NCBI GenBank assembly: GCA_030272155.1
Contig: CP126192.1
Span: forward strand, 3,878,501-3,942,500
DNA length: 64,000 nucleotides
Direction: 5' to 3'
Source: Tetradesmus obliquus
Taxonomy: Eukaryota; Chlorophyta; Chlorophyceae; Sphaeropleales; Scenedesmaceae
Below the pieces are notes generated by a model that was not told where the DNA came from, searched no databases, and worked only from the letters and a program-made list of their open reading frames with translations. The position numbers and the translations under genes were made by a program. Shown in pieces: positions 223 through 63,330 of this stretch (within the stretch, counting starts at the first letter, position 1; each line of letters begins with the position of its first letter).

Positions 223-599
223 GCAGCAGCAGCAGCAGCACCTGCAGCAGCAGCGACGGCAGCAGCAACAAGCATGGGGTTTGGTTTGTGTTGTTTGTGT
301 TGCATCCTCATGAAACAGCAGCGGGCGTGCTGCCCGTTAACTAGTGCGCACGCAACTCTATTGCCCAGCAACTCCTGCCCACTCTATTGCCCAGCAACTC
401 CTGCCCACTCTATTGCCCAGCAACTCCTGCCCACTCTATTGCCCAGCAACTCCTGCCCACTCTTCGTGTTGACTGCCAATCCCGGCCCTGCTCCCCCTGC
501 TGCGTCTCACTGCTTCCCAATACTTGCCATCTGCTGGCAGGGGCACATCTTCATGAGCCACCCCACCAAGGCCATCTCCCCACGCCGACCTTGCCCCGC

Positions 600-631
<32 letters not shown>

Positions 632-3600
632 GCTGCTGCTGCTGCTGTGAACTGCGCCTGCTGCTGCCGCCGCCTGGCAGGGCCGCATCTTCATGACGCA
701 CCCCACCAAGGCCATCTTCCACACGCTGGTCTCCGACTTTGCCAACCTGAGCGGCGAGGACGCGCTGTTCAGCAAGAAGGACGTGGAGGCCTGCATGGAC
801 AGGATCGAGGTCATCGACTTCGACCAGACACTGCTGGTGGACGGCATACAGGTGGGTGGTGAGCAGCGGGAGGTGATGAGCCAGGGGGTGGCTGCGCCTG
901 CCTGCCAGCGTGTTGGCTTGTCTTGCCTACCTGCCTGCTTGCCTGCCTGCCTGCCCGCCTGTCCTAATGGGTTCAGGGTTTTGCATGCATCATTTGGCGC
1001 GGTATATGTTCTGTACGTACTGTTGGCAAGGTGCGGTGCACACGGCGTGCTTATGAAGTGCCAGCAGTTGCTCACGTCCTTGCTTGCTTGCTGCTTGCCT
1101 GCGCGTGCCGCTGCAGATCACACCCTACAGGGCTGGCCACGTGCTGGGTGCTGCCATGTTCATGGTCACGGGCAGCACCGTGCGCTGCCTGCTCACATGC
1201 CTCCCTGCCTGCCTGCTTGCTGTCTCGTGCCGCTGCAGATCACGCCCTACAGGGCTGGCCACGTGCTGGGTGCCGCTATGTTCATGGTGGAGGTGGCCGG
1301 CATGCGCTGCCTGTACACGGGCGACTACAGCAGGGTCACAGACAGGCACCTGTCGGCAGCAGACACGCCGCCAGTCACGCCACACATCGGTGTGTAGTGT
1401 TTCCAGCTCTATGTTTTGGTGCTCAGCCAGGCTCCGGCATGTTGTTGCAATCCCGCAATGATGTATGCGACGCTGGTGGTGGGGCAAGGCAGCAGGTTCT
1501 CACCAGCCAGCAGCAGACGGATGAGGCCAACCATACTCATCATCATTGGCCGCCTTTGTGTTGCTGCAGTCGAAACAGTTGGCACCGACACAGTGTGCCA
1601 ATGCCTGCTCTGCCATGCTGGTTGCCGATGCTGCCGCTTTGCGCAGTGATCGTGGAGAGCACGTACGGCACGCAGCTGCACGGCCCCAGGGAGACGCGTG
1701 AGCGGCTCTTCACGGAGAGCATTTCGCGCACCGTGCGCGCCGGCGGCAGGGTGCTGCTGCCCATCGTGGCCATTGGCAGGGCACAGGTGCGGGCAGATTG
1801 CAGCAGCAGCAGCAGCAGCAGCAGCAGCACATTGTGTAAGGTTCACCCGGAAGCAGTTGCTTTGCTTCTCGTGTGGTCCAGAACCAAGTGGCAGCTCACT
1901 ATGCTCTGCATGTTTCAGCTGACTGCCTTGCATTTTGTCACGCGTACAACGAGCATCAACCAGGTTTGCTGCATGCCTTGACGGCCAGGTGCTGCTAGGC
2001 TGTTAGCGCGTGTTGTGCGTTGGATGCGTGTCCGCTCTTGTGTTTGGGGTCTCCTGGCTGTGCATTGAGTCCAATGATGAGTCATTCTATATGTCCAATT
2101 GCTGGCTTACCAAACCACTGGTGACAACCTGATTGGCTGAGGACGCATGATCAGTACACACCTCCATAGCTGCCTTCTTAGATGGCTGCTTTGGGTGCAT
2201 CATGACACATTGTCTTGCATGCAGCGCACATGCACCCCGCGCGTCTTGTAACACAACCCTCAAGTTTGGCCTCACTGCTGCTGCTGCTGCTGCTGCCTGC
2301 TGCTGCCAGGAGCTGCTGCTGCTGCTTGATGAGTACTGGGCGCGCCACCCGCAGCTGCAGGGCATCCCCATCTACCAGGCCAGCGGCGTGGCGCGCAAGG
2401 CGCTCAACGTGTTCGCAACATACGTGGCCATGATGAATGCAGACATCCAGAAGGCCATCAACCAGGTGCGGCAGGGGCTGAGAATTGGCACTGCCAGGGC
2501 GAGGAGCAGCATTTGGCGTGCCTGCATGTTGGCGGCAGAGAACACATGTCGAGAGAGGAGACTGGGTGCTCATGAATGCTCACAGGTGTTCTCTGTTTTG
2601 CCTGCGCTGCATCACCTTCTGCTGACTCTCACGTTGCTGCTGCTGCTGCTCCTGCTGCTTGTTCCCTCCCTCCCCTGGCTGCCTCTCCCGCCGCAGTACC
2701 ACCGCAACCCCTTTCACTTCAAGCACGTGCAGGTGCTGAAAGGTGGCGCTGCAATTGATGACTGCGGGCCCTGCGTGGTCATGGCCACACCCTCCATGCT
2801 GCAAAGTGGGCTCAGCAGGGACCTGTTTGAGGCCTGGTGCGAGAGCAGCAGCAACACGGTCATCATCGCTGACTTTGCGGTGCAGGGCACGCTGGCACGG
2901 GACATCCTGAGCAGCCCTAGCCACGTGATGAGCAGGCAGGGTGTCAAGGTGCGCGCGGCGCTGCTGTGGAGGTGCTGTGGAGAGCCAGTATTCAAGTTCA
3001 TGTTTCAGTAGGCATGTCAGGCCTCTGCTGCCCCGGCTTCCTGAGCTGCTGCCTGCTGTGTATTGCGCTGGCTTCTGTGCGCTTATGCATCGCACTTTTC
3101 GTCAGCTGCCATGCACCCTTGGCAGGGTGTCGTGCCGTGTGCTGCGGCTGCAAGCTCACATCGCCCCTGCATGCTTCACACCGGCCACCTCTACTGCTTC
3201 GTGCTGCCTGCTGCAGCTGCCGCTGCGTGCGCTCGTCGAGGCCATTTCCTTCAGCTGCCTGCATTGTTCAGCTGCTTGTGTTTATGCCTTGCACTGCTGC
3301 CTCACATTGCTGCTTTTGTGCTGTTTGTGCATTGCAGCTGCCGCTGCGTGCGCGCGTGGAGGCCATCTCCTTCAGCGCGCATGCCGACTTTGACCAGACG
3401 CGGCAGTTCCTGGAGCAGCTGGCGCCTCCTCACGTGGTGCTGGTGCACGGCGAGTTCAACGAGATGATGCGCCTGCGCACGGTGCGCCACACAGCTCGCA
3501 CTGCACATCCTCTGCATGGCATGCGGTGGCGCGTGGCAGGACTCGCGGTTGTGATGGAGGCAATAGCACTTTGGTACTGCAAATCCACACAACTTTGGGT

Positions 3601-4963
3601 GTGGCACGCTCTGCACCCAGCTGTGCAGACTGCTGTTACCCAGCACTGCGCGGCGCACCCTCAGCCTGCCTGTGCACTGCCTCGGCCGCACTGGGCTGGA
3701 GCAATGAAAAGGTTTGAGGTCTTTAGCAATCAATTCTATTCGAGGCCTCTATGACAGCCCTACGGCAGGGCAGCACTTTTCACTGCATGTGTACACATGT
3801 TGTGTGTGCATGTGGCCCTGCAGGCGTTGGAGCGAGAGGCAGCACAGAAGGGCTGGACTCGCACCCTGCACACGCCCAAGACAGACAGCTCCATCTTCAT
3901 CCCCTTCACGCAGCAGCACACCGCAGCAGTGCGGGGCAGGCTAGCGGAGCAGCCCGCCAAGGCAGGCCAGGCGCTGCGGGGCGTGCTGGTGCACCAGGGG
4001 GCTGCTGACCAGATCTTGCACCCTGAGGACATGTCCACATTCACCAAGCTCACAGTGGGTGAGTGGCTTGAGTGACGCTGCTTGCCAGGAGGTGTACATA
4101 GATGTGGGGTGAGCACACCGCGTAAGAGGTGCGGAAATCAAAATCACACTGGCTTATTATCGGCGGTTGCCGTTGTGCATGCATGGCTGGTCAATGAGCT
4201 TCTGTCAACCGTATCTTTAGCTGAGCAGCAGCTGTGTGTGCAGTTTGGGTGGGGATATCTGACGATGCATCTGCCGCTTGTTACCTGGCGGCCTCCGTTG
4301 CCCGCTGCAGGCAAGGTGATGCACAGGCAGGCCGTGGCCATGAGCAAGCCCTTCTCAGAAGTGCGGCTGGCGCTGGAGGTCATGTTTGAAGGCATAGAGG
4401 GCAGCGGTTGCCTGCCAGTCAAATCAGTGCATCCAGCAGCAGCAGCAGCAGCAGCAGATGGCAGCAGCAGCAGCAGCAGCGGCCAGCCGCCGGAAGGCGA
4501 GCAGGCGGTGTGTGTCGGCGACATTGTCATGGTGCGGTACCGCCCCGGCAATCCCGCGCTAGGGTACGAGTCCCATGTCGTGCTAGAGTGGGCTGGCGGC
4601 TCGAAAGGCGATGTCGTGGCAGATGCTGTGCTGGCAGTGCTGCTGCAAGCTGCTGGGGAGCCCAGCGGCGCTGCGAAAGCAGAAGCAGCGCGGCAGGCGG
4701 CGCTGGCGGCTGGTGATGTTGCTGGCGCGCTGCATGCGGAGATGCAGCTTGCAGGACTTCTGCTGGCTGCGCAGTTTGGGCCTGTGGTAGTGAGTGAGGC
4801 TGCGGGGCAGATCCAGATGCAGGTGGATGGTGTAGAGGTGGTGGTGGATCACGTGCATGGCAAGGTTGCGTGTGATGCTGAGCCGTTGAGGCTGCGTGTG
4901 GAGAAGGTGCTGCAGCGGATCACTGAGGCGCTGCGGCCGTGTGCACTGGACTTTGAGGATTGA
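11..4963 (+). CDS. CPSF3: CPSF3 (CPSF73) pre-mRNA 3'-end processing endonuclease, 5' end cut by window
   Basis: Metallo-beta-lactamase/beta-CASP nuclease of the cleavage and polyadenylation complex; it cuts pre-mRNA after the poly(A) signal in the nucleus. Nine exons are visible: 11-182, 681-851, 1239-1389, 1647-1786, 2310-2465, 2697-2948, 3338-3481, 3824-4058 and 4311-4963. They close to one frame of about 690 codons, near the usual family length of about 684, so only the extreme N-terminus should lie off-window. Zinc-site motif HFHLDH is in the first exon, GDYS at about 1320, the beta-CASP acidic motif VIVESTYG after 1647, the His motif ISFSAHADF after 3338, and [10 protein letters not shown] at about 3440. 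All catalytic motifs look intact. The last exon carries a polyalanine/polyserine insert (about 4435-4485) before the CPSF73 C-terminal domain. Three of its exons have intronic echoes. Confidence 0.95.
188..241 (+). repeat. (CAG)n run just after the donor of CPSF3 intron 183-680
   Basis: Nearly pure CAG units with one CGG-type interruption begin five bases after the exon end at 182. The complementary (CTG)n run lies at the other end of the same intron (600-648). Confidence 0.9.
355..458 (+). repeat. 26-bp minisatellite, four tandem copies, in CPSF3 intron
   Basis: The unit starts ACTCTATTGCCCAGCAACTC and repeats with a period of 26 bases, starting at 355, 381, 407 and 433. The copies are essentially identical, so the array is young or kept uniform. 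It sits between the CAG and CTG runs of the same intron. Confidence 0.95.
535..583 (+). repeat. Exon-edge echo of the CPSF3 exon starting at 681
   Basis: This segment matches 675-723 over about 49 bases with a few substitutions, including the AG before the exon. It would encode [12 protein letters not shown], compared with [12 protein letters not shown] in the real exon. The family sequence is matched by the downstream copy, which also leads into the rest of the exon. Confidence 0.88.
600..648 (+). repeat. (CTG)n run just before the acceptor of CPSF3 intron 183-680
   Basis: About 15 CTG units with one CTA interruption end some 30 bases before the acceptor at 680. The run is complementary to the CAG run at 188-241. 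Confidence 0.9.
1104..1167 (+). repeat. Exon-edge echo of the CPSF3 exon starting at 1239
   Basis: Offset by 122 bases from 1226-1289. The acceptor CTGCAG is kept, and the translated stretch [17 protein letters not shown] is identical in both copies. The three differences within it (ACA/ACG, GCT/GCC, GCC/GCT) are all synonymous. Confidence 0.93.
1797..1829 (+). repeat. (CAG)n run after the donor of CPSF3 intron 1787-2309
   Basis: Roughly 11 CAG units begin about ten bases after the exon end at 1786. A CTG run lies directly before the acceptor of the same intron (2275-2304). Confidence 0.9.
3213..3256 (+). repeat. Exon-edge echo of the CPSF3 exon starting at 3338
   Basis: Matches 3334-3377, including CAG at the splice site. 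The echo would encode [13 protein letters not shown], compared with [13 protein letters not shown] in the real exon, then diverges before the catalytic histidine. Confidence 0.88.
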
Positions 4964-7337
4964 GAGAGAGCTGCTCAGGTGTATGTGTGGCAGGGCATCT
5001 TGTGTGGAGTGTAAAACCTTGATGGCTTGCAACCTCAAGTTGATTGCAATATTGACACATTAATGTGCGAGATGAGGGTGTGCGTAAGCGCTGTAGGTGT
5101 TGCACAGCACCAGCGTCTGCTGACCAACGTGACGTCAGACTGGTAATGCTGGCCCACCTGCAGAGAGTTTGCACTGCACTAAAACCCCCCTGGCGTTTGC
5201 AGTACTGTGTTGGGTTGATGGGTGGCAAGTGCGACTGCAGGCACCCTGAGTGCCCCAGCCCATGGTTTAGGTGTTAGGGTTTAGGCTGCAGGCGCACTGA
5301 GCCCCCAAGCCATGTCCGCTGCCGCATGCATGTTTTGCTGTGCAAATTGCCGGATGTCTTTGCTTAAAAGAACTCACCATCAGCTTTCGGCAGGGTTGCA
5401 ACTCATGCAAGATGAGCATGCGCAAGCAGCCGCGAGCCAATGGTTTGGACAGAAATGTTAAAAGGGTGTGGCTCTGGAGGGCGCTTGCGCTAGCAAAGCT
5501 GCTTGTGTTGCCAGCTGCTGGAGCACATCATGTGCGCACGGCGCACCTGTCAATGCGCACGGTGCACCTGTCAATGCATTGGGGGTATGTAACCGAGCAC
5601 TGTGGGTGTCGTACAAGGTATCAATTAAGCAAGACATACTGCTGGATTAGCCTCACCAATTTCCACGGTGTAAGTTGTGATGATAGCTATAGGCTCATGT
5701 GCATGGAAAGACTTGTCGACTGTACAGTTACAAAGCAGGCCGAGGACCCGCTAAATCAACTTGCAGCCTCTGCCAGCACCTGCCATACAGGCTGCTGCAT
5801 ATCTGGCGGCTGCAGACCTCTCCTTCTCGCACGGCTGCATGCAAAACCTTTTCAGGAAAGCACCACCATGCCATGATGACCACAAACAAGGACACGTTTG
5901 TGTCCTGTTCTCAACTTCCGATGTTGGCATTCAAACCAAGCGCTGTTCAGGCACTGCCACAAAGACAGTGAGGCGCACGAGACCAAACTCTTTCCAAGTG
6001 CAATTCTCTGCCGATGCCGCAAGAGCAGCCTGGTCATTTCAGAGCCAGTACACAATTTGGCATTGCTGGCAGCATCCATGCAGCAGAACAACAGCCAGCA
6101 AACCACACAATCCAAAAGAAGCCTACGACCTAGGCAGCAGACTGCCCTCCTCACGGAGACCTGAACATAACACACATTTTGAGGCGCAAAACATGCGCCG
6201 TAAGGCATCGAATGAATGATAATCAATCAGTGTGTGAAGCAAATGACGCGCAGACTGATTCCTGGTGGGGTAGCTCTCTGGACCCAGCTGTGCAGAGTGC
6301 AGTGGCTGTGAAATGCGCGGGGAAAACCTGTGAAGCAATCCACAACCACTACAGCTGCCAAGTGGCCTGTGCCTGCATGCATGCCCATCCAGGGCTGGAT
6401 GGTGCACAATGCTAAAAAATCAATTCTGTGGAGATGTGTGAGCAGCATGCAAATGCTGCTAAGGACCTACGGGAAGGGCGCATGCTAATTCAAGCCAGCG
6501 GTGTAACTGCAGAACCATCAAGGCGGCATGACAGTGCACAAGAATGCAACGCGCCTTCGGGCAACCTAACAGCTGTGGCGCAACAGCACACAGCATCCCC
6601 CAGCTGCTAACCCCTGAAGGGTTGCAACACAACACAAAACACAAAGAATGTAACATGCCAAAAGCAGCCTTTCTGCCTAGCACGCAGCAGGCATTGTACT
6701 AGACTATCAGCAGCATCGCTGTTCTGAAAACTAGCCACCAGGTAATAGGGAGCAATACCAGAGCCCAGCATAATCCGATGCTAATTGCTGCGCACCAACG
6801 CATGTTGGTGACACAGCATTCACAGCAAATCGCATGTGAAGTGCAGAGGTGGACCTGTGTAGTCGTCCGCTCTCTGCTATAGCCCATCGCGCTAAGGAAG
6901 GCAAGTATGCTCTAAGCAAAGCAAAGCACAGGGCATGCGTAAGCATGCACACAGGAATACTGCAAGGGCTCAACATGACAAGACATGCCTGGCAGGCTCA
7001 TCTTACATATGCTCATGCAAAATGTAAAATGCATGTGACACCTGCACTTCTGAGGCCGGCACACCACATCTCAGAAAAAACTCAAGAGGCATCATAACAT
7101 GGAACTCAGCACACAGCAACAGACCGCTTGCCTGCATGCAGTGCGTGAACGCATACATACGCCCAGCCGCACAACACACACGCTGCGCACATCCTGCTAC
7201 TCAGGCACCATGCACGTGTGCATGCCTGCAGCAGCAGCAGCAGCCACGCGACCTGGCCATTGGACTCACGCGCACATGTTGCCAGCACGGCAGTGCAGTG
7301 TCAGCTGGACCTCAGCCTGGTGCGCCTCATCGGGGAC
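4964..7337. other. Convergent intergenic spacer between CPSF3 and the Cys-rich gene
   Basis: No coding region resembling a known family was found on either strand. It holds a 21-bp tandem doublet at about 5533-5574 (GCGCACGGCGCACCTGTCAAT type) and a short telomere-like TTTAGG/TTAGGG cluster at 5266-5285. The rest looks like unstructured spacer. Confidence 0.6.
5010..5014 (+). terminator. Possible TGTAA poly(A) signal of CPSF3
   Basis: TGTAA lies about 47 bases after the CPSF3 stop. Green algal nuclear genes commonly use this motif, but it is short and can occur by chance. Confidence 0.4.
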
Positions 7338-13077: not shown

Positions 13078-13245
13078 GACTATGGACGGCAATTTGTTGT
13101 GATTCAGTAGGTGTAGGCCTTCTTTAGATACACAGGAGACTTCGGTGTTTGAGCGACGTCTACTTGTATATCTATTTACGTTTTGTTTGTGGTGTATCGA
13201 TGGTTGGAATCAGAAAGCTGATGATTGTCTAGACATGTCGTCCTT

Positions 13246-13263
13246 GCTTTATATAGGCATTGG
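13246..13263 (-). promoter_or_regulatory. TATA box and CCAAT motif of the Cys-rich gene
   Basis: On the minus strand the sequence reads CCAAT, three bases, then TATATAAAG, about 170 bases upstream of the start ATG at 13077. Position and spacing fit a strong core promoter, though the transcription start is not known. Confidence 0.55.
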
Positions 13264-14801: not shown

Positions 14802-14806
14802 TTACA
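14802..14806 (-). terminator. Possible TGTAA poly(A) signal of eS17
   Basis: TGTAA on the minus strand about 56 bases beyond the stop codon at 14862, a typical distance for green algal genes. Confidence 0.45.
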
Positions 14807-14861
14807 AGCATCTAATGTGCTGTCATGCACCGCTCAGGCGCGTGATGCGGCTGCGGCTGCT

Positions 14862-17510: not shown

Positions 17511-20367
17511 ATGGCTAGCTACGAGTTGAGCAGCACGCTTGCACGCTTTTTAGACAAGCACCTGTGCTTTCCTCTGCTCGAGTTCCTGCAAGACAAGGGC
17601 GTGTACAATGAGGAGGACATCATGCGGGCCAAGATAGCGCTGCTGCAGAACACAAACATGGTGGATTTTGCTATGGATATCCACAAGGAGCTTTACCAGA
17701 CAGACGAGGTGCCAGCAACGATGATGGAACGCCGCACAGAGGTGGTGAACCGCCTGCGCAGCCTGCAGAAGGCAGTGGATCCGATCATTGGCTGCCTCAG
17801 CAACTCCAACGTGATCCGCAACTTCAGGCACGTGTGGGCCAGCTGGCTGGGCAGGCTGCAGCTATGTCAGGCCTGGGCAATCCCTGCTTGCTGCTGCTGC
17901 TGCTACTGCTGCTGTTGGCGGGTAGATTGCGCATACACCTGATGCCGTACTGTTGACAGCACAGATCATTGCCGTCATTGTCAAAGCGTTCAAGCGTGCA
18001 ATAGCTTGCCACACCCGCATCGCCAGCTGCTGCAACAGCCTCTTGTATGCTATGCCGTACGCACTGCAGCCAGCAGCACGCCACGCAGCGGCCACCGCGG
18101 TGCGCTTGGCACAATACAGATGTCACTGCTCTTCATCCCCACACACACCAGAGGCTCATTGCAGTCAGGCTTGCTGATGCGCAGCACTATCCTTCGCGGC
18201 CTGTGCTGACCTTGATAACTCATTACGCCAACTCGCTTCATGCTCGCAGGCAGGACCGCGCCTTCAACCTGCAGTTCCTCAAGGAAGAGTTTGACATCGG
18301 GCCGGAGCAGATAGAGGCGCTGTACCAGTTCGCCAAGTTCCAGTTCGACTGCGGCAACTACAGCATGGCCTCGGAGCTGCTGCAGGTGGGGACTGGAGCA
18401 GCGAGGGCAGCAAGGGCAGGTGTAGTTGCAGCAGCAGCAGCATGCAGTAGCAGCATGCGGTGGCAGCTGCAGTGCTGCGCTGAGGAGATTGGCGTTTGGT
18501 GGTGCGGCAGGTACAACAGCAGCAACAGGCAGGCACGGCAGAGCAGGAAGTGCACAAGCAGCAGTACATGCAGCACGGTGCTCGTCTGGGGACAGCAGTG
18601 TCAGGCCTAAGTACAGGCGCAGCACCATCTCCAACAGTAGCTGCTACACACTGCTCTATGACTTGAATGATGGCACATGCCCACAAAGGTTTCGCCTGGT
18701 GTCACAGCTGCACAGCGTGGGCAGTTGCAACATTGCAACAGTGCAGCACAGGCAATGCAGCCAGTGTACTGGAGGGGTGCAGCAATCTCTGTGTACCGGG
18801 CTTTGGCAGCAACCTTGGAACCATGAAGTAGCAAGTTTCGGCCCACGCCCAGCAGCAAGCTCACCAAGCGTAGAAGGGAGGGCTGCGAATTGTGCTCATG
18901 CCGGCTCACGAACAGCAGCAGCAGCAGCAGCAGCAGATCGGCGCGCCTGGATGCACATTTGCAGGCAGCTGCGTCGCCAGCAAGTTGCACACCTGCATAT
19001 CTTTCGATCGTGATGTTGCCGCCCGCCTGCGCGCTGCTCGCTGCTGCCGCTGCTGCAGGCCTACAAGCCGCTGTGCACCACCAGCGAGCGCAACATGAGC
19101 GTGCAGTGGGGCAAGCTGGCGGCCGACACGCTCACGCAGAACTACGAGGCAGCCACAGAGGCGCTGCTGCGGCTGCGCGAGTCCCTGGACAACCAGTCCT
19201 TTGCCACGCCGCTGATGCAGCTGCAGCAGCGCACCTGGCTCATGCACTGGAGCCTGCACGTGTTCTGGAACACAGAGAACGGCAAGAACGCGCTGATCGA
19301 CCTGTTCCTGCAGCCGGCGTACATGTCGGCGATCACCATCAACGCGCAGCACCTGCTGCGGTACCTGGCGGCTGCCGTGGTGGTCAACCGCAAGCGCCGC
19401 AACGTGCTGCGCGAGCTGATCAAGGTCATCCAGCAGGAGAGCTACGAGTACAGCGACCCCATCACGCAGGTGCGGCTGGAGTACTGTGTAACATGTTATG
19501 TTACCTTTTTGCGTTATTCTGTGTGGTGGCTGGATGGGCGCGAGTGTGGCGACCGTGGCGGGGAGGTTTCGGCTGCACCGTTCTTGCTTGCTGCATGGTG
19601 CTCTGTGACCAACACAACGCACAGCAAATTGCATATACTACGTTATAAACAGATGCCGTCTTCCATGTGTGCGCTGTCTTTCCCTTGCTCCTGCCTGCGT
19701 GTCAACGTGCCTTCTGCTGCGGCGCTCGTCCCTCACCTCCCACCCACGCGCTGCCGGAATTCCTGGAGTGCCTCTTTTTGCACTACAACTTTGACTGCAG
19801 CAATCGTACTTACGTGCTGTTGCCTGCCTGCTTGCACGTATACTTGCCGCCCACCTCGCTGTCGCAGTTCGTGGAGTGCCTGCTCGCGCACTACGACTTT
19901 GATTGCAGCCACTGCACTCACTTTCTGTTGCCTGCCTCATCCCCCCGCTGCCGCAGTTCCTGGAGTGTCTCTTTGTGCACTACGACTTTGACGGCGCGCA
20001 GCAGAAGCTGATCGAGTGCGAGAGCGTCATCGAGCACGACTACTTCCTCACCGCCATCAAGTCCGAGTTCCTCGAGTCTGCGCGACTGTTCATCTTCGAG
20101 ACCTACTGCCGCATCCACCAGTGCATCAACATCGACATGCTGAGCGAGCGCCTCAACATGGACAAAGAGGCAGCAGAGAAGTGGATCGCAAACCTGATCC
20201 TGTCCGCGCGGCTCAACGCCAAGATCGACAGCAAGGCGGGGACAGTGGTGATGGGCATGCAGAGCAGCAGCATGCAGGAGAGCCTCGCGGAGAAGGCCAA
20301 GCAGCTCAGCGTGCGCACCTTCACGCTGGCGAATGCGGTCGTAGGCGCGCCAGCAACCAAGGCATAA
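17511..20367 (+). CDS. EIF3E: Translation initiation factor eIF3 subunit e (INT6)
   Basis: Subunit of the eIF3 complex that scaffolds the 43S pre-initiation complex. Exons 17511-17831, 18254-18385, 19059-19469 and 19957-20367 give about 424 residues, close to the 445 of human eIF3e. The N-terminus is MASYELSSTLARFLDKHL. Family blocks such as EQIEALYQFAKFQFDCGNY, WGKLAADTL, HWSLHVFWNTENGKN and the PCI domain (FIFETYCRIHQCINIDMLSE) are present in order. The first junction is ambiguous: a GT donor after 17831 gives FRHD, while a GC donor four bases earlier paired with an acceptor four bases earlier gives the family-like FRQD. The last exon has two tandem echoes in the preceding intron. Confidence 0.94.
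18429..18460 (+). repeat. CAG-rich run after the donor of eIF3e intron 18386-19058
   Basis: Interrupted CAG units lie 44 bases after the donor. The same intron ends in CTG-rich sequence (about 19032-19058). Confidence 0.75.
19751..19907 (+). repeat. Two tandem exon-edge echoes of the last eIF3e exon
   Basis: Copies at about 19751-19799 and 19859-19907 match the true exon start at 19950-19998. They would read EFLECLFLHYNFD and QFVECLLAHYDFD, against QFLECLFVHYDFD. Each copy then runs into TGCAG and a TGTTGCCTGCCT-type stretch, so the repeated unit is about 90-110 bases and spans intron plus exon edge. Confidence 0.92.
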
Positions 20368-22797: not shown

Positions 22798-22828
<31 letters not shown>

Positions 22829-24790: not shown

Positions 24791-24822
<32 letters not shown>

Positions 24823-26558: not shown

Positions 26559-26599
<41 letters not shown>

Positions 26600-26803: not shown

Positions 26804-26838
<35 letters not shown>

Positions 26839-27983: not shown

Positions 27984-28023
<40 letters not shown>

Positions 28024-29432: not shown

Positions 29433-29467
<35 letters not shown>

Positions 29468-30344: not shown

Positions 30345-30382
<38 letters not shown>

Positions 30383-41244: not shown

Positions 41245-44200
41245 TTAATCAGAGTGATCATCATCAGAATCCGACTCATAGTCGTCATCATCCTGCTCCT
41301 TGAACACACCGTCATCACCATCAAAGGCTGCAAAGCCAAACAGCTGCTCATGCAGCTGCTTGTAGTCCACCTTAGGACCCCGCTGCTGCCGCCGCCGCCG
41401 CTTGCGTGCACTGCCTGTCGAAGCTGCTGCTGCCTTCTGCCGCTTGCTGCCCTTCTTGCTGCCACTGCCGCGCTGCTGCTTGCGGCTGCCCTTGCCAGCT
41501 GGCTCCTCACTATCTGAGCCGCTGGTGTCGCTGCCGCTGCCGCTATCATCTTCGCTGCTGCCGCTGCTGCTGTCTGCATCTGCATTCATACAAGCAGCAG
41601 ATTGAGGGCGAAGGTCAATGAACTTGGTAGCTGCCATGAGTCAATGAACTTGCTGGCACGATCAACGCAACAAGGTTCAGCAGGTGATGCACACGCTGAC
41701 AATGCATCACTGACAGTGCTTGCAGTGCAGGTTCCTGCTGTGGCAGCAGCTGCTGCCCCAGCAGTGCCGGCTCAGCTGCCCACCTGAGCTTGGCCGCCGC
41801 CGCTTCCACGCCTGCTGCTTTGCGCTGCTGCCAGACCGGCCCCCAGACGCCTTCGCCGCAGCCCTCCTGCGCTTCTTCTGCGCAGCGGTGAGCGGCGTTG
41901 CACCAGCAGCAACGGCAGCAGCAGCGACAGCGTCCACAGCGCTCTGTCGCCGGCTCCTGCGCACTGCTGGCGTTCCCTCCTCTTCCTCCTCAGATGACTG
42001 CTCCTCCTCACTGCTGCTGCTCCCGCTGCCTTCACTGCCGCTGCTAGTGTCGTTGCCACTGCCGCTGCCGCTGACGTCATCTTCATCGCTGCCGCTCTCT
42101 TGTGCTGCTGCTTGCCTGCGGCCAGAAGCTGGCCTGCCTCGCTGCCGCTGCTGCTGCTTCCTGCTGTGTGGACGGCGCTTGCCCTCTACTTCGTCCTCAT
42201 CTGCAGCAGCAACCATGCCAGCATTAAACAACTTGTTTGCCACACGCTGTTCTCATGGCTCGATCAATAACGTGATGATGAGCATGCATCTTGGAACATT
42301 ACCTAATGATCCACAAATGGCATGCGGCCCCGCACAACCTCAACCCCTCTCTTCATCCCGCTAACTAGCGTCTGGGCCGAAAGCAAAATAAAGCATGGCA
42401 TCAGCGCACCTGGCTCGCTGTAGCTGCCATCATCCTCATCTTCAGATGGCAGCTCGGCATCCAGCCAGTTCAGCCCACCAGCAGCAGCAGCAGCCCCTGC
42501 CCCTGCACCATTTGCTTGCTGATGCGCAGCAAGTACAGCTGCGAGTGCTGCGCCAGGCCCTGCTGCTGCTGCTGCGCGTGGGCTCTCCAGGCTGCGAAGG
42601 CGCTGCAGGCGCAGGGCTTCCTGCTGCTGCTCAGGCTCAGCAAAGAGGTCCGTCCAGGGCGTGTCGATCTCGTACTCTGTGCCAAAGTAGTCGTTGACTT
42701 GCAGCAGGATGTCCATCTGAGTGCAGGGATCAGCAGTGCAGGCAGGCGATGACATCACAGCGGTGGTTGAGTGGAGGAAGCAGCAAGACAAGAGCGACAT
42801 CCTGGGCATGGATATATACAAGAGTGCTGCTGAGGCAGGTGATGCATGTGAGACACTTGCTGGCCTGTTTACATGTCTAACAGCCTGGCATACTACACAC
42901 CCGCCACGGGCTGTGCTGTTTGAGCTAGCACACGCACCTTTGCGTCGCAGGCGGGGCACAGCCAGCCTTCATCCTCCGGGATGTCTGCCGCCACCAGCCT
43001 CGGGCTCAAGCAGCACTCATGGAAGGCACGGCTGCAGGGCCCATCACACAGCACCAGGTCGTTGTCGTCGCTGCTGCTGCCGATGCGGCACTTGGCGCAG
43101 AAGATGTTATCCACCTCCACCTCGCCCTCGCTGTCAAAAGCGTCAGCTGGGATGGCCTCGTCTGGCGGGCGGCAGACATGGGTGCAGCAGCAGGGACGCA
43201 ACAGACGGGGCACCGCAGCAGGGACAGCAGGGGACACATGTTGTTTCGGACATGGCAGCTCGTGCAGTGCATGACGGCAACCAGCTTGCATGCAACTGCA
43301 ACTGCAACCCGGCATTCATGAACATCCCAGCGTGTGCAGCGGCAGTGATGAGCGCGTGATGATTGCTGCTGATGCTGCTGTTGGTGCAAGCTGCACCTCA
43401 TGGAGGTCATCCTTGCGTGTCCCACAAGCATCACCTGCAGGCACCTCCTGGCAGTAGCGCGCTGCCTGGCGTATGACCTCCTTGCAGCGCGCTACGGTCA
43501 GCTCGGCGCGCTTCAGCTCATCAGTCAGCCGCACCTTCTCACGGCTGGCAGCAGCAGTTTGGATTCAGGCGGGCAGGAGCAGCAGGCAGGCACGGCATGC
43601 AGGGGATGGTATGTGCAGTACAGTGAGCGCGCTGCAGCATGTGTCAGGTCGCAGGGTGGGAAGGCTTTCTCACACCTGCAGAGTGCCAGGTGATCAGCGG
43701 CCGGCCAGGTGTGCAGCGGCGGCAAACAAAGGCAGTAGCCTGGTGCCTACGCAGCTTGAGGTCAGCTGGATGCAGTGCATCAAGGTCTTGTATGTGCAAG
43801 CATGTTGACCCAGCCACCCTGCTAACTGCCATGACCCTTGTCACCCTGCCCTGGTAGCGCAGCACCTCAATAATCCGTCAATCCTTCAACCACTGCTAGC
43901 GAGCTGCTCACCTGGCGCCCTTCCAGCCGTCAGCCGCATACGTCTGCAGCAGGTGCTCCTCCGTGCTGATGCGCTGGATCTGGTGGTTTACGCGCCGCAC
44001 CGCTTGCTTGAAACTTGTGAGCTCAGGGATGGGCCGGTTGGCGCCACCATAGCGCGTGCTGGTGGTGGCGGTGTTGCTGCTGCTGCCAGGCCCGCCCTCT
44101 GCTGCCAGCACCGCAGCAAGTGGCCCCTTGCGGCGGCGCTGCTGCTGCTGCTGCTGCTGCTGCTTGCGGCGCTTGGCCCCTGCTGCTGCCGCTGCTGACT

Positions 44201-45785
44201 TTTTGGATGCTGTCTGCTTGGGCTTGCTTTTCGTCTGCTGCTCAGTCTTGCGCGGGCGGCCACGGCCCCGCTTTGCTGCAGGTGCTGCTGCTGCTGCTGC
44301 CTCTGGCTCTGACTCGCTGCTGCCATCAGGGCTGTCACTGCTGTGCTGCTGCTGCTGCTGCTGCTTGGGTGGCCGTCCACGCTTGCGCTTCGGCTCTGCT
44401 GCTGCCTCGGCTTCTGGCTCACTGCTGCTCCCGCCCTGCTGCGGCGGCTGCTGCTTGCGCGGGCGGCCACGGCCTCGTTTCACTGCAGGTGTTGCTGCTG
44501 CTGCTGCTGCCTCTGGCTCTGACTCGCTGCCACCGTCAGCGCTGCCGCTGCCACTGCCGTGCTGTGGTTGCTGCTGCTTTGCTGGCCGTCCACGCTTGCG
44601 CTTCGACTCCGCTGCTGCCTCAGGTTCAGGCTCACTGCTGCTCCCTTCCTGCTGCGGCTGCTGCTGCTGCTGCTGCTTGCGGGGACGGCCACGGCCGCGC
44701 TTCTCAGCAGGTGCTGCTGCTTGCTGAGGCTGGCTGTTCTTAGGCGGGCGGCCGCGCTTGCGCTTTGCAGGAGCAGCAGCAGCTGCCGCCTCCGGCTCTG
44801 AGCCACCGTCTTGCTCCTGCTGCTTCTTTGGCGGACTCCCACGCATGGGAGCAGCAGCAGCTGCTGATGGCTGCCCTGCCTTGGGCTGCTGCTGCTTTGG
44901 GGGCCGCCCACGTCGCTTGCGCTGCTCAGACTGGCCCTCCTGCTCTTCCTCACGGCCAGAGCCTGCTGCTGCTGCTTTTTTGTCTGAGCCTGCCTCATTG
45001 CTGTCATCCTCCTCCTCTGCCTCAGAGCCGCTGCCGCTGCTGTGCTGAGTGGAGCCAGCCGAGCCATCTTCTTCTTCGCTGCTGCTGTCCTGCTGCTGCT
45101 GGCGCCTGCCCTGCAGCTGTTTACCCTGCTGTAACTGCTGCTGCTTGGCTTTCCGCTTCTGTGGTTGCTGCTGCTGCTGTGACTGCGACTCCTCTTCTTC
45201 CTCTGACTCATCCTCTTCACTGCTGCTGCCAGCCTCATTGTCTGCATCATCCCCGCTGCTGCTGCTGCTGTCCCTGAGCCTTGCAGGAGGCCTGCGGGTG
45301 CGTGTGCTGCGCTGCCGCAGCTGCTGCATGTCACTGTCACTGTCGCTGCCTGCTTCTGCTGCTTCAGCTTCCTTTGCAGCCCGCTGCTTGCCACTGCCAG
45401 GCATGGCAGCTGCTTGCAGGACCTGCTTGCTGGGCTGCTTCTGCCGGTCAACCTCCTGCTGCTGTTTCTGGCTGCTACCTTGCCCCAAACGGGAGGGCTG
45501 GGGTGGCAGGTTAGCTTTCCTTGCAGCAGCATGACTCCCACCATTTGCAAACGGTGTGTGCTGCCGCTGCTGCAGTTGCGGTTGCGGCTGCTGCCCTCTG
45601 CCTCCAGAGGCAGGTCTTGCTGCTGCTTGGCCGTTTGCTAGCTGCTTGGGGGGGCTGGTGCCTGGCTTGCTTGGAACCCCTCCTGCAAGGCCTTCCTGCT
45701 GATGCTGCTCAGGTATGTTGGATTTGTCATGTTCCACTCCTGAGCTGCTTCGCCTGGTAGAGGGACGACCTGCTGCTGCGTCCAT
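41245..45785 (-). CDS. AT-hook and PHD-finger chromatin protein (HAT3.1/PRHA-like, no homeodomain seen)
   Basis: Nuclear DNA- and histone-binding protein by domain content. Exons 45785-43912, 43544-43426, 43161-42938, 42716-42410, 42200-41784 and 41579-41245 close to 1091 residues; the 43426/43161 junction is chosen mainly by phase. The first exon (625 codons) carries seven AT-hooks, alternating KRKRGRPPK and KRGRGRPRK types, between polyQ and acidic Ser-Glu stretches. The third has a PHD finger, NIFCAKCRIG...DLVLCDGPCSRAFHECCL...EGWLCPACDAK. NDYFGTEYEIDTPWTDLF and PKVDYKQLHEQLFG follow; in plant HAT3.1/PRHA proteins the matching blocks flank the PHD finger and precede a homeodomain. No homeodomain is visible here. 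The C-terminus is very acidic (EQDDDDYESDSDDDHSD). Confidence 0.85.
44250..44775 (-). repeat. Coding tandem repeat of paired AT-hook modules
   Basis: Modules of about 35-45 codons alternate KRGRGRPRK + polyQ + SSSEPE + polyA with KRKRGRPxK + polyQ + SESEPE + polyA. The two-module unit occurs at least twice, indicating duplication of a pair rather than single hooks. Confidence 0.8.
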
Positions 45786-49851: not shown

Positions 49852-52800
49852 ATGTCTAAAATGAACAAGCCCCTAGCAAACTACTATCATGAGGCCCGGG
49901 CTCAGGTCAAGAAGCTCAAGACGATGCAGGAGGAAAACAAGAAGAGGGCAGAGCGCCGCGCAGAGATAATTGCTCCAGTGGTGAGCAACAGCAGCAGCAG
50001 CAGCAGCTGCACCAGGAGCGGCGGGGTTTTTGCAGAAAACAGCTGCAGCCTCTCAACCTTACTGCTCTGTCTGAACAGTACTTCTGTTTTGCCGGCGGGC
50101 TGTCCAACAGCAGCACGTGTGCTGTGATCTGTGTGGACTCCTCACAAGTTTGCGTTACCACAGCCGCCTCTGCTGTGTAATGAACACCGGCATCAAGTTT
50201 TTGTACTGGTGTAATGGTGTTGGGCCTGCAGGCTGCCGACCCGCTGCAGAACCTGTTCATCAGCGGCACTTCCTGCAAGCTGCTGCGTGGCGCAGAGTCT
50301 CACGCCATGAACGAGGCAGGAGAGAACCTGGTGCCCTGGAACGGGCAGCAGGACAACATGATTGACAGGTCAGCGCCAGCACTCCAGCAGCTGTAGCAGG
50401 CACCGCCAATTACGTACAGCCGCATGGCATTGATGGCAGCGTTGTCGCCTTGCTGCTGCATTCTTTGCACATGTCTGCATCAGCGTGGTTTTGATGTGGA
50501 GCCATGCTTCTGCATAGATGCCGCAAAAGATTCCTGCATTGCATTCTTGCTGCAGGTTTGATGTGCGGGCGCTGCTGGACTTCTACAAGGAGCCTGACCC
50601 GCGCGTGCTGGCGATGAGGCAGAAGAGCAGCGAGGAGCTGAAGCTGGAGCAGGTGGGGCAGCTGGCGCAGTGTTGTGGTGATTGCTTTGGACAGACAGTG
50701 ATGCATCTTGGTGTGTTATATGGTGTAGCGCAGAGTGGTCATCAAGTACGAGTTGCACAGCAGGTGTGCCAGTGTCGGGTTGCAAGTGTGTCTGAGCAGT
50801 GCACACCATGAGCTGCATCTGCGGTCTTCATTGCGTGTGCCTTGCTGTGCAGCCCAGCAGCAGCAACATTACCGCCGTGATGCTGCAGTGCATGACGGTT
50901 GTTTCCAGCACACCTTGCTGCCGCTGCGCTCACTCATATTGCCACACGCACCTGCAACACCGCAACCACCACGATCGCCGCATGCATGCAGACGCTGCGC
51001 TTTGAAAGCTACAGGGATCTGGTACGTTTGGCAGCCCGCGGCGTCAGCGAAGCGCAAGGCCTCGCAGCAGTAGATGCAGAAAGCCTCGACAGGCGCGCCG
51101 CGCAACATGCGGCACTGCAGGCAGCAACAGACGCAGTGTATTTCAACCCAAAGCCAGGAGGTGCAGCAGCATCAGGGCCAGGTTCTGCTGCACACGGCGC
51201 AGCTCCTGCTGGAACTGGGGTGTACAGCGCGATGGGGTTCAGCTATGACAGCAGCGCAGGTGGTCCTGCAGGAGCCGCGGCGCTTCCTGCAGCAGCTGGC
51301 GCAGGAGAGTCCTCAGACAGCAGCAGCGAGGATGATTCTGATGAGGACTCAGATGATGATGAGGATGCAGCAGCGCTGCTTGCAGGACAGGCTGCAGGTG
51401 GTGCTGCAGGGCCTGTGTCAGAGGCTGAGCTGGCACAAGAAGCAGAAGACGAGCGGGTTGATGACATGGCAGAGGCGTACGGCCTGGCTGACTTCTGCTA
51501 CCGGCTGCATCGGGCGCTGGAGAAGGAGGGAGAGGAGGAGGCGCGCATGCGCAAGCGGCCCAGGTGAGCGCAGCGGCGGTGTGCGGGGATGCAGGCAGCA
51601 AGTACTTGCTGTCGAGCGCGTGCAACTGGGAATGCATGCGGCAAGCAAAATCTTGAAAATTTGCGAGCGGCCCAGGTGAAGGCAGCTGCGGCATGTTGCA
51701 CACATGTACAGATGGCGGCACACTGCATACAGGCAGGCACACACACTTTCAGTGAGCTGATGCTGTTGACCTTGGTCGTGGTGGACTTGCGCCGACTGCG
51801 CTGGGGCGCTGCAAACGCTCTATTACTGTGCAGCTGAAACATCCAGCCACGCACCGCACCTCAATGTGCTCGCCTTGCTAGCACAATTCCTCCGCAACCC
51901 TTTCGGACACCCTCGCGCCCACTCTGCACGCCCACTCTGCACGTAACTTACATCTGTTGCTTTATTAACTCGCTGCTTGCAGGAAGAACATGAGCCGCAA
52001 GAAGGCGGCCAACCGCGCCAAGCGCATGGCAGGTATGGGCCTGGACCCCTCCACAGGGCAGCCGCTGACAGCACACAACCCATACAAAGACCCGCGCCAG
52101 CTGATCAACCCCTGGCAGGACAGCAGGGGCGGCGGCAACGCCTCGCCTGACAGGTGCGCAATGCAGCAGGAATGTGACAAGTGTATGGACTGCTACTGTT
52201 GCTCGTTGGTAGCTTTTTAATGATGCACAGCGGATGGGCGTGCTGACCTGCTGCTGCTGTGGTTCTGCAGCGCAGCAGGTGATGTACTAGCGCTTGCAGC
52301 GGCGCTGCTTAACACGAGTGCTGCCTCGTGTTCTGTTGTTGCTGCAGGCCGTACAACAGGCGCAGCAGCCCAGACTATGACGCAGGCGGTTGGCGCGTAA
52401 GGTGGGCGGCTGCAGCATGCCTCTTCGCATGCTCATGCAGGTTTGCTCTGCTTAGTACCTCATGTGACAGTCAGCCCATGCATGTTTGCAATGCGTGGAT
52501 GTGTGCTGGGGTGTTGGCAGCGCTGCTGCTGGCAGCACAAATGTATGTGATGGTTTTCTCCCTTACCATAACTGACTGGGCGCCGAACTCGCCTTCGGGG
52601 CTGTGCCTGACTCCAGCTGGGCCTCTGCATGTCTGCTTGGGGATGTTTGCGGGGACCGCTCGCCTACCCCGCCAAGGTGTGTCACTAGTTGCTGCTGCTG
52701 TGGCAGGCACTCCTTTGTGTGCAGCCCCGAACGGCAGCACTGCCATGTTGCCTGCCCCTCTGCCTTAAGCCAGCTGCTGCTCGTGCCGGCTTCACCCACT

Positions 52801-59470: not shown

Positions 59471-60031
59471 GCTTATACATAAACTGAAATCGTGTGCAGT
59501 GTCAACATGATGCGCGCCGGTGCTGATGTATTGGTTCGGCAATTGCCTTGTTTTGCTATGAACAAGGCTCCATTGACGTCGAATGCATCTGTGAGACCAA
59601 ATAACATGCTCTGGTGGAAAGATCGGCAGCAATAGGTCGGCTGGTGCGCCGACCAGGGTTCCACGTCAGCTTTCTTTGAAGGTGACAGGTGACTAATATC
59701 AGCACGCTCTGCGGCGTACACCTTGCGAACGCAAATTCACGCATGCTCTTTTCGTAGAGGTATTGGTCACCTGTTAATCCCATGTGCCTTGCATGCTGCG
59801 TTGGGCATGCGCAATGTCGCAACGGTCGGCAGCAGGCTGCATGACAAAGGGGTGCAAGTTGAAGTTCACTGCAGTTCATGCCGCCATCACCAAATGACGT
59901 TTGGTGATTTCAGGCCCTGACGCCAGCCTCCTGATTCGTCGCCATAAGAAGGCAGGCTGGGACTGTCGCAATGCTCACAGCGCAAGACCTTTACAAACAT
60001 TGGACACCTGTCTGTGGCTGTTGAAAGCAGC

Positions 60032-60069
<38 letters not shown>

Positions 60070-60479
60070 TTCACACCAGAGTCTACGTGCAGCTGCCCAG
60101 ACCCAGCCTTTGTATGACTGGATTATCCACTCGTACATCATGCAAGTGTTACTCAAACCACTCCTCGCTTACGCAACCTGCTCGCTCTGCCCCGTCCCAC
60201 AAGATATGCACACTCACACACCGGCACCGTACTGCACCAGAGTTAATTTGACTGCCACCCAAGTAGGGTGTGGCAAGAAGAGCTTCAGAATGCAATCCCA
60301 GACCTGCAAGGCATGCCAACAAGTGCTTGTCAGCAGAGACTCCAAAAGCGCCACAGGTTCAGGCCCAGCTAGACCCCAGACGCAGGCCAGCCACCTGAAC
60401 CTCAGGCCTCTCTCTCCCTGCCACATCACCACAACATTCCGAGCCTGCTGAACCTCAGATCCGTTAGAACCTCAGGTTT
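59471..60479. other. Spacer between the lipase promoter and the CHLM 3' end
   Basis: Contains a (CAG)n run at about 60034-60065 and three GAACCTCAG motifs within about 70 bases just beyond the CHLM stop (about 60400-60475). No gene was recognised. Confidence 0.6.
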
Positions 60480-60625
60480 TCAGGCCTTGACCGCCTCCAG
60501 CAGGCGTGAGAAGTAGAACTTGGTGGCTGTCATCTCGCGCTTGACCACCTTGAAGCCAGCAGCCTGCAGGCTGGCCTCCACGTCAGCCTCAGCATGCAGG
60601 TACGCGCGCGTGGCCTGGCGCAGCA

Positions 60626-60667
<42 letters not shown>

Positions 60668-63330
60668 GTGTCAGCAACAGCTTGAGTAATAGATGTGTAG
60701 AACGACATCTGCAGGACGCTGCTGTGTTTGATGTGGTTATCATGAGCCTCCTCCAGACACAAGTCATCCGCACCTGCAGCACAGTGTACCCCCTATTGCT
60801 GTCCTATCCTGCTGTTGTGCAGCAGCGGCCAGCACCATAGACTGTAGAATGAGAGCTGACATTGTACATGTAAGCAACAGACTGTGAAACACACCTTGGA
60901 GGGGCCGGGGAAGAGCTCTCCAATGCGCTTGAGCACCGAGTAGTAAGGCGTCTTGGGCGCAAAGCTGATGATGAGCCGCTGCTCCGCGAGGCTGGCCAGG
61001 TGGCCGATCATGGCGTCAGCCTTGTCCTGGGGGTAGTGGATCATCACGTCCAGGCAGGTCACGGTGTGGTACTTGCCGGTCACAGACCTGCGGCAGCAGC
61101 AGCGAGCAAGGTTGGTTAGTAATGTTTGGTTACAGTACAGGTAGTGCTTTCACAACCAGCACAGCCACTAGTTGCGGAACAGCGTCTTTGGGACAACTCC
61201 AGCAGATTGTGCTGTAGCTGTCGCTGTTCACTCCAAGCAGCCAGCGCACTGCTGCAGCTCATGTTAACGGCACACCTTCATAGCAGCTGCTAGTTGCTAG
61301 TTTCTGCTGCTGCTGAAACCTTCCATTCCCTATTCTGTCCCCCAGCCGCCACTCACTCAAGGTCCATGGCCTCAAACTTAGGGGGCGTGGCTGGTGCAGC
61401 AGCGCCCGCAGCAACAGCCGCCTCGTAGCGCTTCTGCGCCTCTCCTGCCATGGCTGCGCTGATGTCGGAGGCTGACACGGCAGCGCCACGCAGCGCCAGC
61501 GGGATGGCCAGCGAGCCTGCAGGGTGACATCGCAGCGCAGCAACAGCAGCGGCGTGAGGGAGTGTAGCAGTGTGAAGAGCTGACCGTGCCGCACAGTGCA
61601 CTTTGACGTAGCATGTATCATCAAGCGAGGAGTGGCATACAACCCCAGGGCCTGTGGAGGACGCATAAGCAGATGGCTGGCCGCTAGCTGGTGTGTGTCC
61701 GCGCTACACTGTTCAGCACAGTCATTGCTCGCAACCCTTCAACGCCCGCTGCGCACCTGTGCGTTGGACAATGGTGTCTCCCAGCCTGCCCTCCGCATCC
61801 ATCCAGCACAGCACCCATTCAAACCCAATATCTACAAGCACACATCGACCCAGCCGCACCTGTGCCGCAGCCTGCATCGGCAAAGGATGTGCGGGCCAAA
61901 CCTCCCTCCGCATCTAGCCAGCCCAGCACGCAAACAAACACGCCACTTGTATTTACAACAATCACCGACAAGCCCACATCAACCCAGCCGCACCTGTGCC
62001 GCAGCCTGCATCAGCCACGGATGTGCCTGCCAGGCCTCCCTCCGCGTCCAGCCAGCCCAGCACCTTCTCCACGGTCTGCGCGTGGCCCTGCCTGATGTCC
62101 AGCTGCACCTTGTTCACCTCGTCAGTCTCGCCGTAGATCTTCTGCCAGCGGTTGAAGCCCTCGGTGTTGAAGTAGGTCTTGACCTGAGGGGGACAAGGTG
62201 AGGGCGGGAGTTGCATGCGTGAGGCGGGTGGGGTGTGCAGGTGTGATAATTGAGGGTTACAGGGTGACGGGACGCTGGTGTTGAAGTAGGTCTCGAACTG
62301 AAGCGTGTGGGAGGATTTCAGGGTGGGAGTGCAGGAACGCAGGCATGAGGGTGGAGGTGGATGTGTGTGCCGGTGTGAGCAAGTGGAGGAGTTATAGCAG
62401 ATGGTGGGATGCTGTGCCGGCACTGTCAGCATCACAAGCCAGGAAGCAGGGTTGTTGTGACGTGGTGAGACAGCTGGATGCTAGCAGGGCGCGGTGCCCT
62501 CCGCTGCTGCTGGCACAGTCGCTATCCAGGGCTGAAGCAAGGAAACACGAGGGGTTTGCCACAACGTTAAGCGCGGCGTCAGATGGCCAATCACTGTGCT
62601 GAGCCAAGACCTGAGGACAAGCAGGCTGATGGTGTGCTTCTGTTCTTGAACAACTGGCAGGCTGTCTGACCAAAGCAGCAAGCTACCAAGAAATACAACT
62701 CGACAGCTGCAGCTGTTGTGCTGGTGGTGGTGCTCACCGCCTCCAGCTCATCGCCATCTGTTGATGCCATCTGCTGCTCACGCCTGCAGCCAATACACCC
62801 GCACACAAGGGCCAATGAGCAGTTGAACCAACGTTTGCTGGCAGTGAGCAGGTAGCTCTGCTCTGTCCTGAAGTCCTGAGGTTTGGACGAGCAGTGCATT
62901 CTATCAGGCTACAGTGCAAGGACCAACAGCACCTGATTGGCGTGCATACAGCATTCAGCCTCTTTGAAGATGAATACGCAACAGCTTTGTGTGCTGTTCG
63001 ATGTACAAACATGTGCGCAGCTGCCCCAACCGCAGCAACCCACCTCTTCTGTGGGTCTGCTGCCACAAGCAGCGCTCCCAGGCCAACAACTGCAGCGCCG
63101 CTGCCAGCAGCCAGACCCATGTCCATGCCAGACTGGAGCACCTCTGTTGCTGCATGTGCTGCTGGTGCACACACGGCTGCTGCTGCCAGTACTGCTGCTG
63201 CCACTTGCTGCACATTTGAGGATTGCTGCTGCTGGGCCCGGCACTGCACTGCACGCACGCGAGGTGCCGCCCGGTTTGCAGAGGCAAATGCCTTCGTCCT
63301 GCCATTTGTCTTGTTTGCCAGAGCCTGCAT
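60480..63330 (-). CDS. CHLM: Magnesium-protoporphyrin IX methyltransferase, chloroplast
   Basis: Transfers a methyl group from S-adenosylmethionine to Mg-protoporphyrin IX, the step after Mg-chelatase in chlorophyll synthesis, in plastid membranes. Exons 63330-63044, 62783-62738, 62183-61994, 61516-61357, 61087-60895 and 60614-60480 give 336 residues. The N-terminus is Arg/Ala/Gln-rich like a transit peptide and is followed by a hydrophobic GSGAAVVGLGALLVAADPQKR, as in plant CHLM. The core is VKTYFNTEGFNRWQKIYG, the SAM-binding VADAGCGTGSLAIPLA, VSASDISAAM, TVTCLDVMIHYPQDKA, LIISFAPKTPYYSVLKRIGELFPGPSK and FYFSRLLEAVKA. A polyalanine insert sits in the fourth exon. The third exon has echoes of both its edges in the flanking introns. 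Confidence 0.96.
60631..60666 (-). repeat. (CTG)n on the sense strand before the last CHLM acceptor
   Basis: Twelve CAG units on the plus strand, hence CTG on the sense strand, end about 17 bases from the exon start at 60614. Confidence 0.9.
61751..61929 (-). repeat. Two donor-side echoes of the third CHLM exon
   Basis: The exon end plus donor (61982-62072) recurs at about 61849-61929 and, more diverged, at 61751-61816. The nearer copy would read GWLDAEGGLARTSFADAGCGTG, against GWLDAEGGLAGTSVADAGCGTG, with the same GGCACAG/GTGCGG donor. The farther copy keeps only WMDAEGRLG. Together with the exon itself they form three tandem units of about 100-130 bases. Confidence 0.92.
62279..62304 (-). 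repeat. Acceptor-side echo of the third CHLM exon
   Basis: About 26 bases match the exon start (62163-62187): the echo would read QFETYFNTS, against QVKTYFNTE, and includes the CAG splice site. It lies 115 bases upstream in gene terms. Confidence 0.85.

Follow-up and report, generated by a model that had tools for sequence, protein, structure and literature searches.

Tandem echoes of exon edges and their splice sites in introns of Tetradesmus obliquus, probably left by recurrent duplication across exon-intron borders

We describe partial copies of exon edges, together with the splice sites that bound them, within the adjacent introns of genes of the green alga Tetradesmus obliquus. The best reading of these echoes, to which we assign a probability of roughly 0.6, is that they derive from recurrent tandem duplications of about 80-145 bp that cross exon-intron borders and are tolerated by splicing. 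In the window, the whole 64-kb stretch of DNA presented above (C2:3878501-3942500, in a genome of 104.7 Mb and 17 contigs), nine echoes of about 25-120 bases fall at six exons of four genes: three exons of CPSF3 and one each of eIF3e, CHLM and a gene with a DRY_EERY domain. An earlier note on this DNA, made from its letters alone, had named the copies in CPSF3, eIF3e and CHLM and counted five affected exons. Reading of the sequence confirmed all the named echoes and provided their offsets, and the count proved to be understated: the DRY_EERY gene adds a sixth exon, and eIF3e and CHLM each have a second copy. This copying of border pieces lengthens introns and sets spare splice sites beside those in use.

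All exon edges used here come from predicted gene models. These were obtained with a hidden-Markov gene finder that took nine exons of CPSF3 and one of eIF3e as seeds and trained itself on an uninterrupted 264-kb stretch of C2, where it returned 54 genes (46 used in training) and 347 introns; some of its mini-exons were judged to be echoes misread as exons. The CPSF3, eIF3e, CHLM and DRY_EERY models contain the expected Pfam domains, and the names CPSF3, eIF3e and CHLM are those presumed to fit the genes identified through Pfam. The features of the predicted CPSF3 gene are as follows.

534..586, + strand: acceptor echo of CPSF3 exon 681-851 (junction 541, offset 140)
681..851, + strand: CPSF3 exon, first part echoed (gene model, continuous alignment to human CPSF3)
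1069..1191, + strand: acceptor echo of CPSF3 exon 1239-1389 (junction 1117, offset 122)
1117..1179, + strand: stretch of this echo called as a 63-base in-frame mini-exon by the gene finder (donor GTGCGC)
1239..1389, + strand: CPSF3 exon, first part echoed (gene model, human CPSF3 alignment)
3212..3255, + strand: acceptor echo of CPSF3 exon 3338-3481 (junction 3217, offset 121)
3338..3481, + strand: CPSF3 exon, first part echoed (gene model, human CPSF3 alignment)

The echo at 541 matches its exon block at 40 of 46 bases, has 7 intronic bases in common with the real border and contains one frame-breaking gap. The echo at 1117 spans about 48 intronic and 75 exonic bases, with 47 of 50 bases matching in the exon block and 38 of 49, with gaps, in the intronic part, and the echo at 3217 matches at 41 of 44 bases overall (36 of 39 in the exon block). 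In protein alignment, residues matching mini-exon 1117-1179 were not found in human CPSF3, and the CPSF3 model without this mini-exon has no additional residues relative to the human protein at the three echo sites. Endowed with its own acceptor and donor, the mini-exon could illustrate a path to a new exon akin to that described below for potato, or an annotation trap. At 355-463, an echo-bearing CPSF3 intron also contains 4.2 perfect copies of a 26-bp unit.

The remaining echoes of the window are located in three genes.

19749..19798, + strand: outer of two acceptor echoes belonging to eIF3e exon 19957-20367 (offset 197; AG lost)
19857..19902, + strand: inner acceptor echo of the same exon (offset 89)
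19957..20367, + strand: last eIF3e exon (gene model; Pfam eIF3_N, PCI)
51551..51579, + strand: echoed donor edge of the DRY_EERY-domain gene (donor 51563/51564; gene model, Pfam)
51663..51691, + strand: donor echo of this edge (offset 112)
61774..61824, - strand: outer of two CHLM donor echoes, decayed (offset about 249)
61834..61929, - strand: inner of two CHLM donor echoes (offset 134; exon block matching at 61 of 70 bases, with intronic bases in addition)
61994..62183, - strand: CHLM exon, echoed on both sides (gene model; Pfam Mg-por_mtran_C)
62277..62301, - strand: CHLM acceptor echo (offset 114)

The alignment between the two eIF3e echoes runs through their spacer, covering 164 bases at 69.5 percent identity. 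Among the best 120 of 2,152 matches to the CHLM protein, the top two are 99 and 93 percent identical and those listed include the green algae Gonium and Volvox near 70 percent; the echoed residues are absent from both of the relatives in this set that exceed 90 percent identity. The DRY_EERY donor echo is short, and its score of 29 lies under the cut of 40 applied in the systematic search.

For that search, exon edges, taken with at most 70 exonic and 8 intronic bases, were each compared with their own flank of at most 700 bases; low-complexity matches were filtered out and the score threshold was 40. The alignment of edges with their own flanks against shuffled sequence had been proposed in the earlier note, and its expectation was borne out on the 264 kb of C2 and ten loci on other contigs, with matches at 54 of 755 edges (22 of 619 on C2, 32 of 136 in the ten loci) versus none of 3,775 with shuffled flanks. 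Flanks of other genes (0/3,775) and reverse-complemented sequence (0/755) likewise returned nothing, and with zero matches in every filtered control an origin by chance or low complexity is rejected. With the filter off, 27 of 602 real edges matched, versus 20 of 6,020 with other introns, a background that stems from CAG/CTG repeats. Such runs are abundant, making up many of the 110 tandem-repeat entries of the 64-kb window.

Eight matched edges were then excluded by judgement, seven of them belonging to "exons" taken to be echoes and one to a 29-bp repeat. Of the 46 edges that remain, 20 are on C2, among 619 edges, and affect 20 of its 352 introns; the other 26 are in the ten loci, among 136 edges, and affect 24 of 77 introns. 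In this biased sample, 44 of 429 predicted introns therefore bear splice-border repeats. The excluded repeat, near C2 3800365 (L006, at -78135 in window coordinates), consists of three perfect copies of a 29-bp unit across a predicted donor; each copy repeats the exon end and GTGAGG, as a splice-border duplication with a smaller unit than that of the echoes.

The counted set spans eight contigs. Its ten loci constitute a non-random sample because they are centred on RMMBL or helicase matches: L002 and L003 were chosen around RMMBL matches, and the other eight from 92 helicase matches. Echoes per edge are far denser in seven of these loci (L002, L003, L030, L032, L033, L035 and L036) than on C2, and the other three (L029, L031 and L034) have no echoes. 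Four arbitrarily placed 10-kb pieces, kept outside the edge counts, contain few genes and 44 mostly doubtful predicted introns; they hold one likely donor echo (L027, on C7), at offset 141, that matches at 16 of 18 bases on the exon side and 25 of 34 on the intron side. Clustering of echoes by gene over the 264 kb is within chance (P 0.43), and the link of echoes with GC3 is weak (P 0.07).

The orientation of the copies was analyzed using 309 whole internal exons as queries and retaining copies within 600 bases in the adjacent introns. The 33 copies obtained comprise 16 of the acceptor edge lying upstream, 8 of the donor edge lying downstream, 9 classed as interior and none of the far edge. 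Under uniform placement, 6.4 near-edge copies would be expected (24 observed), 20 interior (9 observed) and 6.4 far-edge (0 observed), although the result is weaker than these figures because the uniform expectation takes no account of the bias of short offsets towards the near edge. Among the nine classed as interior, some are edge echoes shortened by model errors, for example those at -43357, CHLM and -13919.

Measurements on exon/echo pairs are based on 56 of an initial 65, after dropping seven whose predicted exons were themselves taken for echoes and two from the repeat at -78135; a reciprocal pair in L030 (3936 with 3838) was kept among the 56 and excluded from the edge counts. Their offsets fall into a narrow principal class of 78-144 bp (38 pairs), with 6 at 160-197, 9 at 227-287 and 3 at 378-408, and arrays reach four copies, counting the real edge. 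The earlier note had suggested that echoes may act as decoy or alternative splice sites. The AG is kept in 24 of 31 echo acceptors and the GT in 18 of 23 echo donors. Kept acceptors have a median score of 5.6, between those of real acceptors (7.1) and random intronic AG (0.3), and kept donors have a median of 5.1, identical to that of real donors and above that of random intronic GT (1.2).

Exon-block identity ranges from 47/47 to less than 80 percent, and this spread from near-identical to decayed copies speaks for the process being ongoing, as the earlier note had suggested; we grade this as plausible. The accompanying claim that reading frames are mostly kept holds in part. The 56 pairs contain 144 synonymous and 126 nonsynonymous differences (pS 0.237, pN 0.068), but four of the latter are stop changes (about 4.5 expected), 11 pairs have a frame-breaking gap, and the offsets are evenly spread modulo 3 (21, 18 and 17), thus providing no hint of in-frame use. 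The pN/pS ratio of 0.287 (bootstrap 95% interval 0.21-0.38) compares with 0.44-0.49 in codon-aware simulations where an echo that is not translated evolves next to an exon under constraint, and varies just mildly between pairs (P 0.03).

Homology extends into the spacers in a good part of the pairs, the intronic spacer resembling what lies beyond the echo, as duplication of a whole unit would demand: 11 of 54 exceed a z of 3 (1 of 54 control pairings) and 25 of 54 exceed 2 (2 of 54), with a mean z of 2.02 versus 0.46 in the control. The 11 pairs include CPSF3 exon 1239 and the CHLM donor, and the best spacer reaches 86 percent identity. At a distance of 24-36 bases from the junction, on the other hand, ungapped flank identity is approximately at control level in five of the six groups. 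When neutral duplication of the whole unit (acceptor type) is simulated, the mean extension of homology into the flank is 31.9 for exon identities of at least 95 percent, 23.8 for 88-95 percent and 14.8 below; the observed means for the matching groups are 4.1-9.2, 6.1-6.4 and 4.9-6.0, a contrast weakened by the indel rate of the simulation, which is an assumed one. Between echoes, copies 2 and 3 of L003 match at 30 of 32 bases in the exon block and at 22 of 40 in the flank.

Taken together, short flank extension and low pN/pS imply that the exon blocks of echoes are kept better than neutrality predicts. They may be refreshed by exchange with the real exon, sometimes copied without their flank, or partly under selection. 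Simple neutral duplication with equal decay is rejected, given that the simulation fails to reproduce the loss of intronic homology, and neutral duplication is therefore retained only with an added step.

The mechanism that we put forward, as the simplest that fits most of the facts, would start from tandem duplications that occur locally and often and span about 80-145 bp. One that crosses an exon-intron border would yield two copies of that border; running from the intron into the exon at an acceptor, or from exon to intron at a donor, it would leave an intact border at the exon body, so that the mRNA could stay unchanged. Since the right mRNA would come only from the copy attached to the exon body, the other would sit harmlessly in the intron and decay. 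Acceptor echoes would then be seen upstream and donor echoes downstream because duplications within the exon or at its far edge would alter the protein and be lost. Further exchange among the repeated blocks could extend them into arrays with a step of about 120 bp, and may also renew the exon sequence buried in the intron. The proposal of the earlier note, tandem duplication across splice sites, is supported on several contigs, with spacer homology in part of the pairs. Signs of the intron gain or splice-site movement that the note linked with such duplication did not appear: the echoes sit within introns longer than themselves, and the CPSF3 model gains no residues over the human protein at its echo sites.

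Repeats in the size class of the echoes also occur away from predicted exon edges, as a perfect 98-bp tandem duplication at C2:3968962-3969158 (L016) and as a repeat pair with a 138-bp offset and 91 percent identity, which argues for a general DNA process instead of one directed at splice sites. Copies away from edges are less numerous than edge copies, and we would provisionally attribute this to both copies decaying freely. Other repeats have different dimensions. At C2:3858672 onward (L012) there is a roughly 460-bp exact array in a 63-bp register, and at C2:4040460 onward (L023) there are near-identical repeats, offset by between 237 and about 1,400 bases, which may represent mobile-element copies. 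Within the window, a 213-bp unit present 2.2 times at 83 percent identity (44247-44726), in a long predicted exon (43912-45404, - strand), is apparently a coding repeat.

The sharp ends of some near-identical pairs, which coincide with the splice consensus, would be explained if blocks of 30-70 bases were copied from the splice site by template switching or end-joining, primed by splice-like motifs, with no duplication of the intron flank. In a helicase gene on C16, which we take to be eIF4A-like, a donor echo matching at 61 of 62 bases stops at +6 and an acceptor echo stops at -12; further pairs stop at -3 to -6, and the control-level flank identity described above points in the same direction. 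However, the excess of homologous spacers over the control pairings makes whole-unit duplication slightly likelier and block copying less likely. In the -43357 gene, moreover, similarity seems by eye to restart past an apparent sharp end, and block copying leaves unexplained why the source is almost constantly the adjacent edge. We consider it unlikely.

The deficit of nonsynonymous differences raises the prospect that many echoes are, or recently were, exon edges in use, as alternative or mini-exons under protein-level selection. Besides a pN/pS below that of the neutral simulation, this explanation has in its favor the 11 pairs whose spacers exceed a z of 3 (pS about 0.23 and pN about 0.05, summed by hand), the strength of the GT-keeping echo donors and the in-frame mini-exon of CPSF3. 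It is at odds with the even offsets modulo 3, the random share of stop changes, the frame-breaking gaps in 11 of 56 pairs and the lack of the corresponding residues in human CPSF3 and in the closest listed CHLM relatives. Furthermore, most echoes, judged by eye, have no splice site at their other end. Selection on used edges is in our view distinctly unlikely as the general explanation.

Unequal exchange between strongly diverged haplotypes could also have set two versions of an edge side by side, in which case exon blocks would differ mostly at silent sites and introns would be unrelated from the outset. This would account jointly for the silent-site excess and the diverged flanks, but pairs almost free of silent change still match poorly in their flanks (C16 and C14 loci) and an unusually high diversity would be required, making it very unlikely. 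Finally, assembly artefact or low-complexity coincidence, conceivable in a genome where CAG/CTG repeats are very common and produce spurious matches before filtering, is extremely improbable given the empty filtered controls and the variously diverged copies on eight contigs with coherent frames and splice sites.

According to a 2012 review, tandem duplication is the sole proposed mechanism of intron gain to have been demonstrated in vivo, and 188 gains by this route are listed there across several species (PMC3443670). A genome holding border repeats from near-identical to decayed would allow intron lengthening to be watched, would show how the spliceosome chooses between near-equal sites, and would reveal how often a duplication yields a new intron or mini-exon. 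The results also carry a warning for annotation, since echoes are readily miscalled as mini-exons. A stronger proposition, that a process recognising the splice border copies edges or that selection keeps the buried copies as working spare edges, we regard as doubtful; if true, it would represent a new genome-wide route of intron evolution.

Many intron-related events in one algal genome are familiar from introners, an insertion-type form of intron gain. An origin as introners or other mobile inserts was rejected, as comparison of the 347 introns with the 264 kb revealed no clear intron family: 45 introns were matched elsewhere, the top matches listed being mostly CAG-rich with a few dispersed repeats. 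A single spacer searched against the whole genome matched solely its own place. Mutually exclusive tandem exons likewise involve exon sequence repeated in the adjacent intron, but in the form described in PMC9013439 the exon is duplicated whole, whereas the echoes repeat one edge, about 25-120 bases. Whole-exon duplication was discarded, with no far-edge or whole-exon copies among the 33 found within 600 bases.

The echoes resemble the Rogers-type model in that a local tandem duplication interacts with splicing. As outlined in PMC3443670, however, that model duplicates an exonic segment containing AGGT, and the resulting intron is as long as the duplication; Drosophila cases of intron gain by tandem duplication are presented in PMC2891723. 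In the alga it is the border itself that is repeated, inside a longer intron, and the length rule fails, with CPSF3 introns of 498, 387 (taken between exon ends 851 and 1239) and 389 bases compared with offsets of 140, 122 and 121.

A closer likeness is provided by the potato RNA-dependent RNA polymerase gene, for which PMC4974935 describes a tandem duplication across an intron-exon border. By that account, one event gave rise to a new, RNA-supported intron and an extra exon, and a second duplication, of 83 bp in the first intron of the gene, left its structure unchanged. The duplicated segment, as described, likewise spans a 3' splice site with the intron tail and exon head, and parental splice signals are reused. 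The direct repeat of intron and exon sequence that characterizes the potato gene is found in the 11 of 54 algal pairs with z above 3, and the intronic part is weak or absent elsewhere. Unlike the single border event reported for potato, the alga presents dozens, at both splice sites and in arrays, and the two proteins compared, CPSF3 and CHLM, show no trace of alteration. We found no account of exon-edge echoes in any alga among the papers listed, judged mostly by title and abstract, and the density, size class and arrays of these border duplications look new. Set against known border duplications, the echoes are remarkable for their number, their narrow size and their arrangement in arrays.
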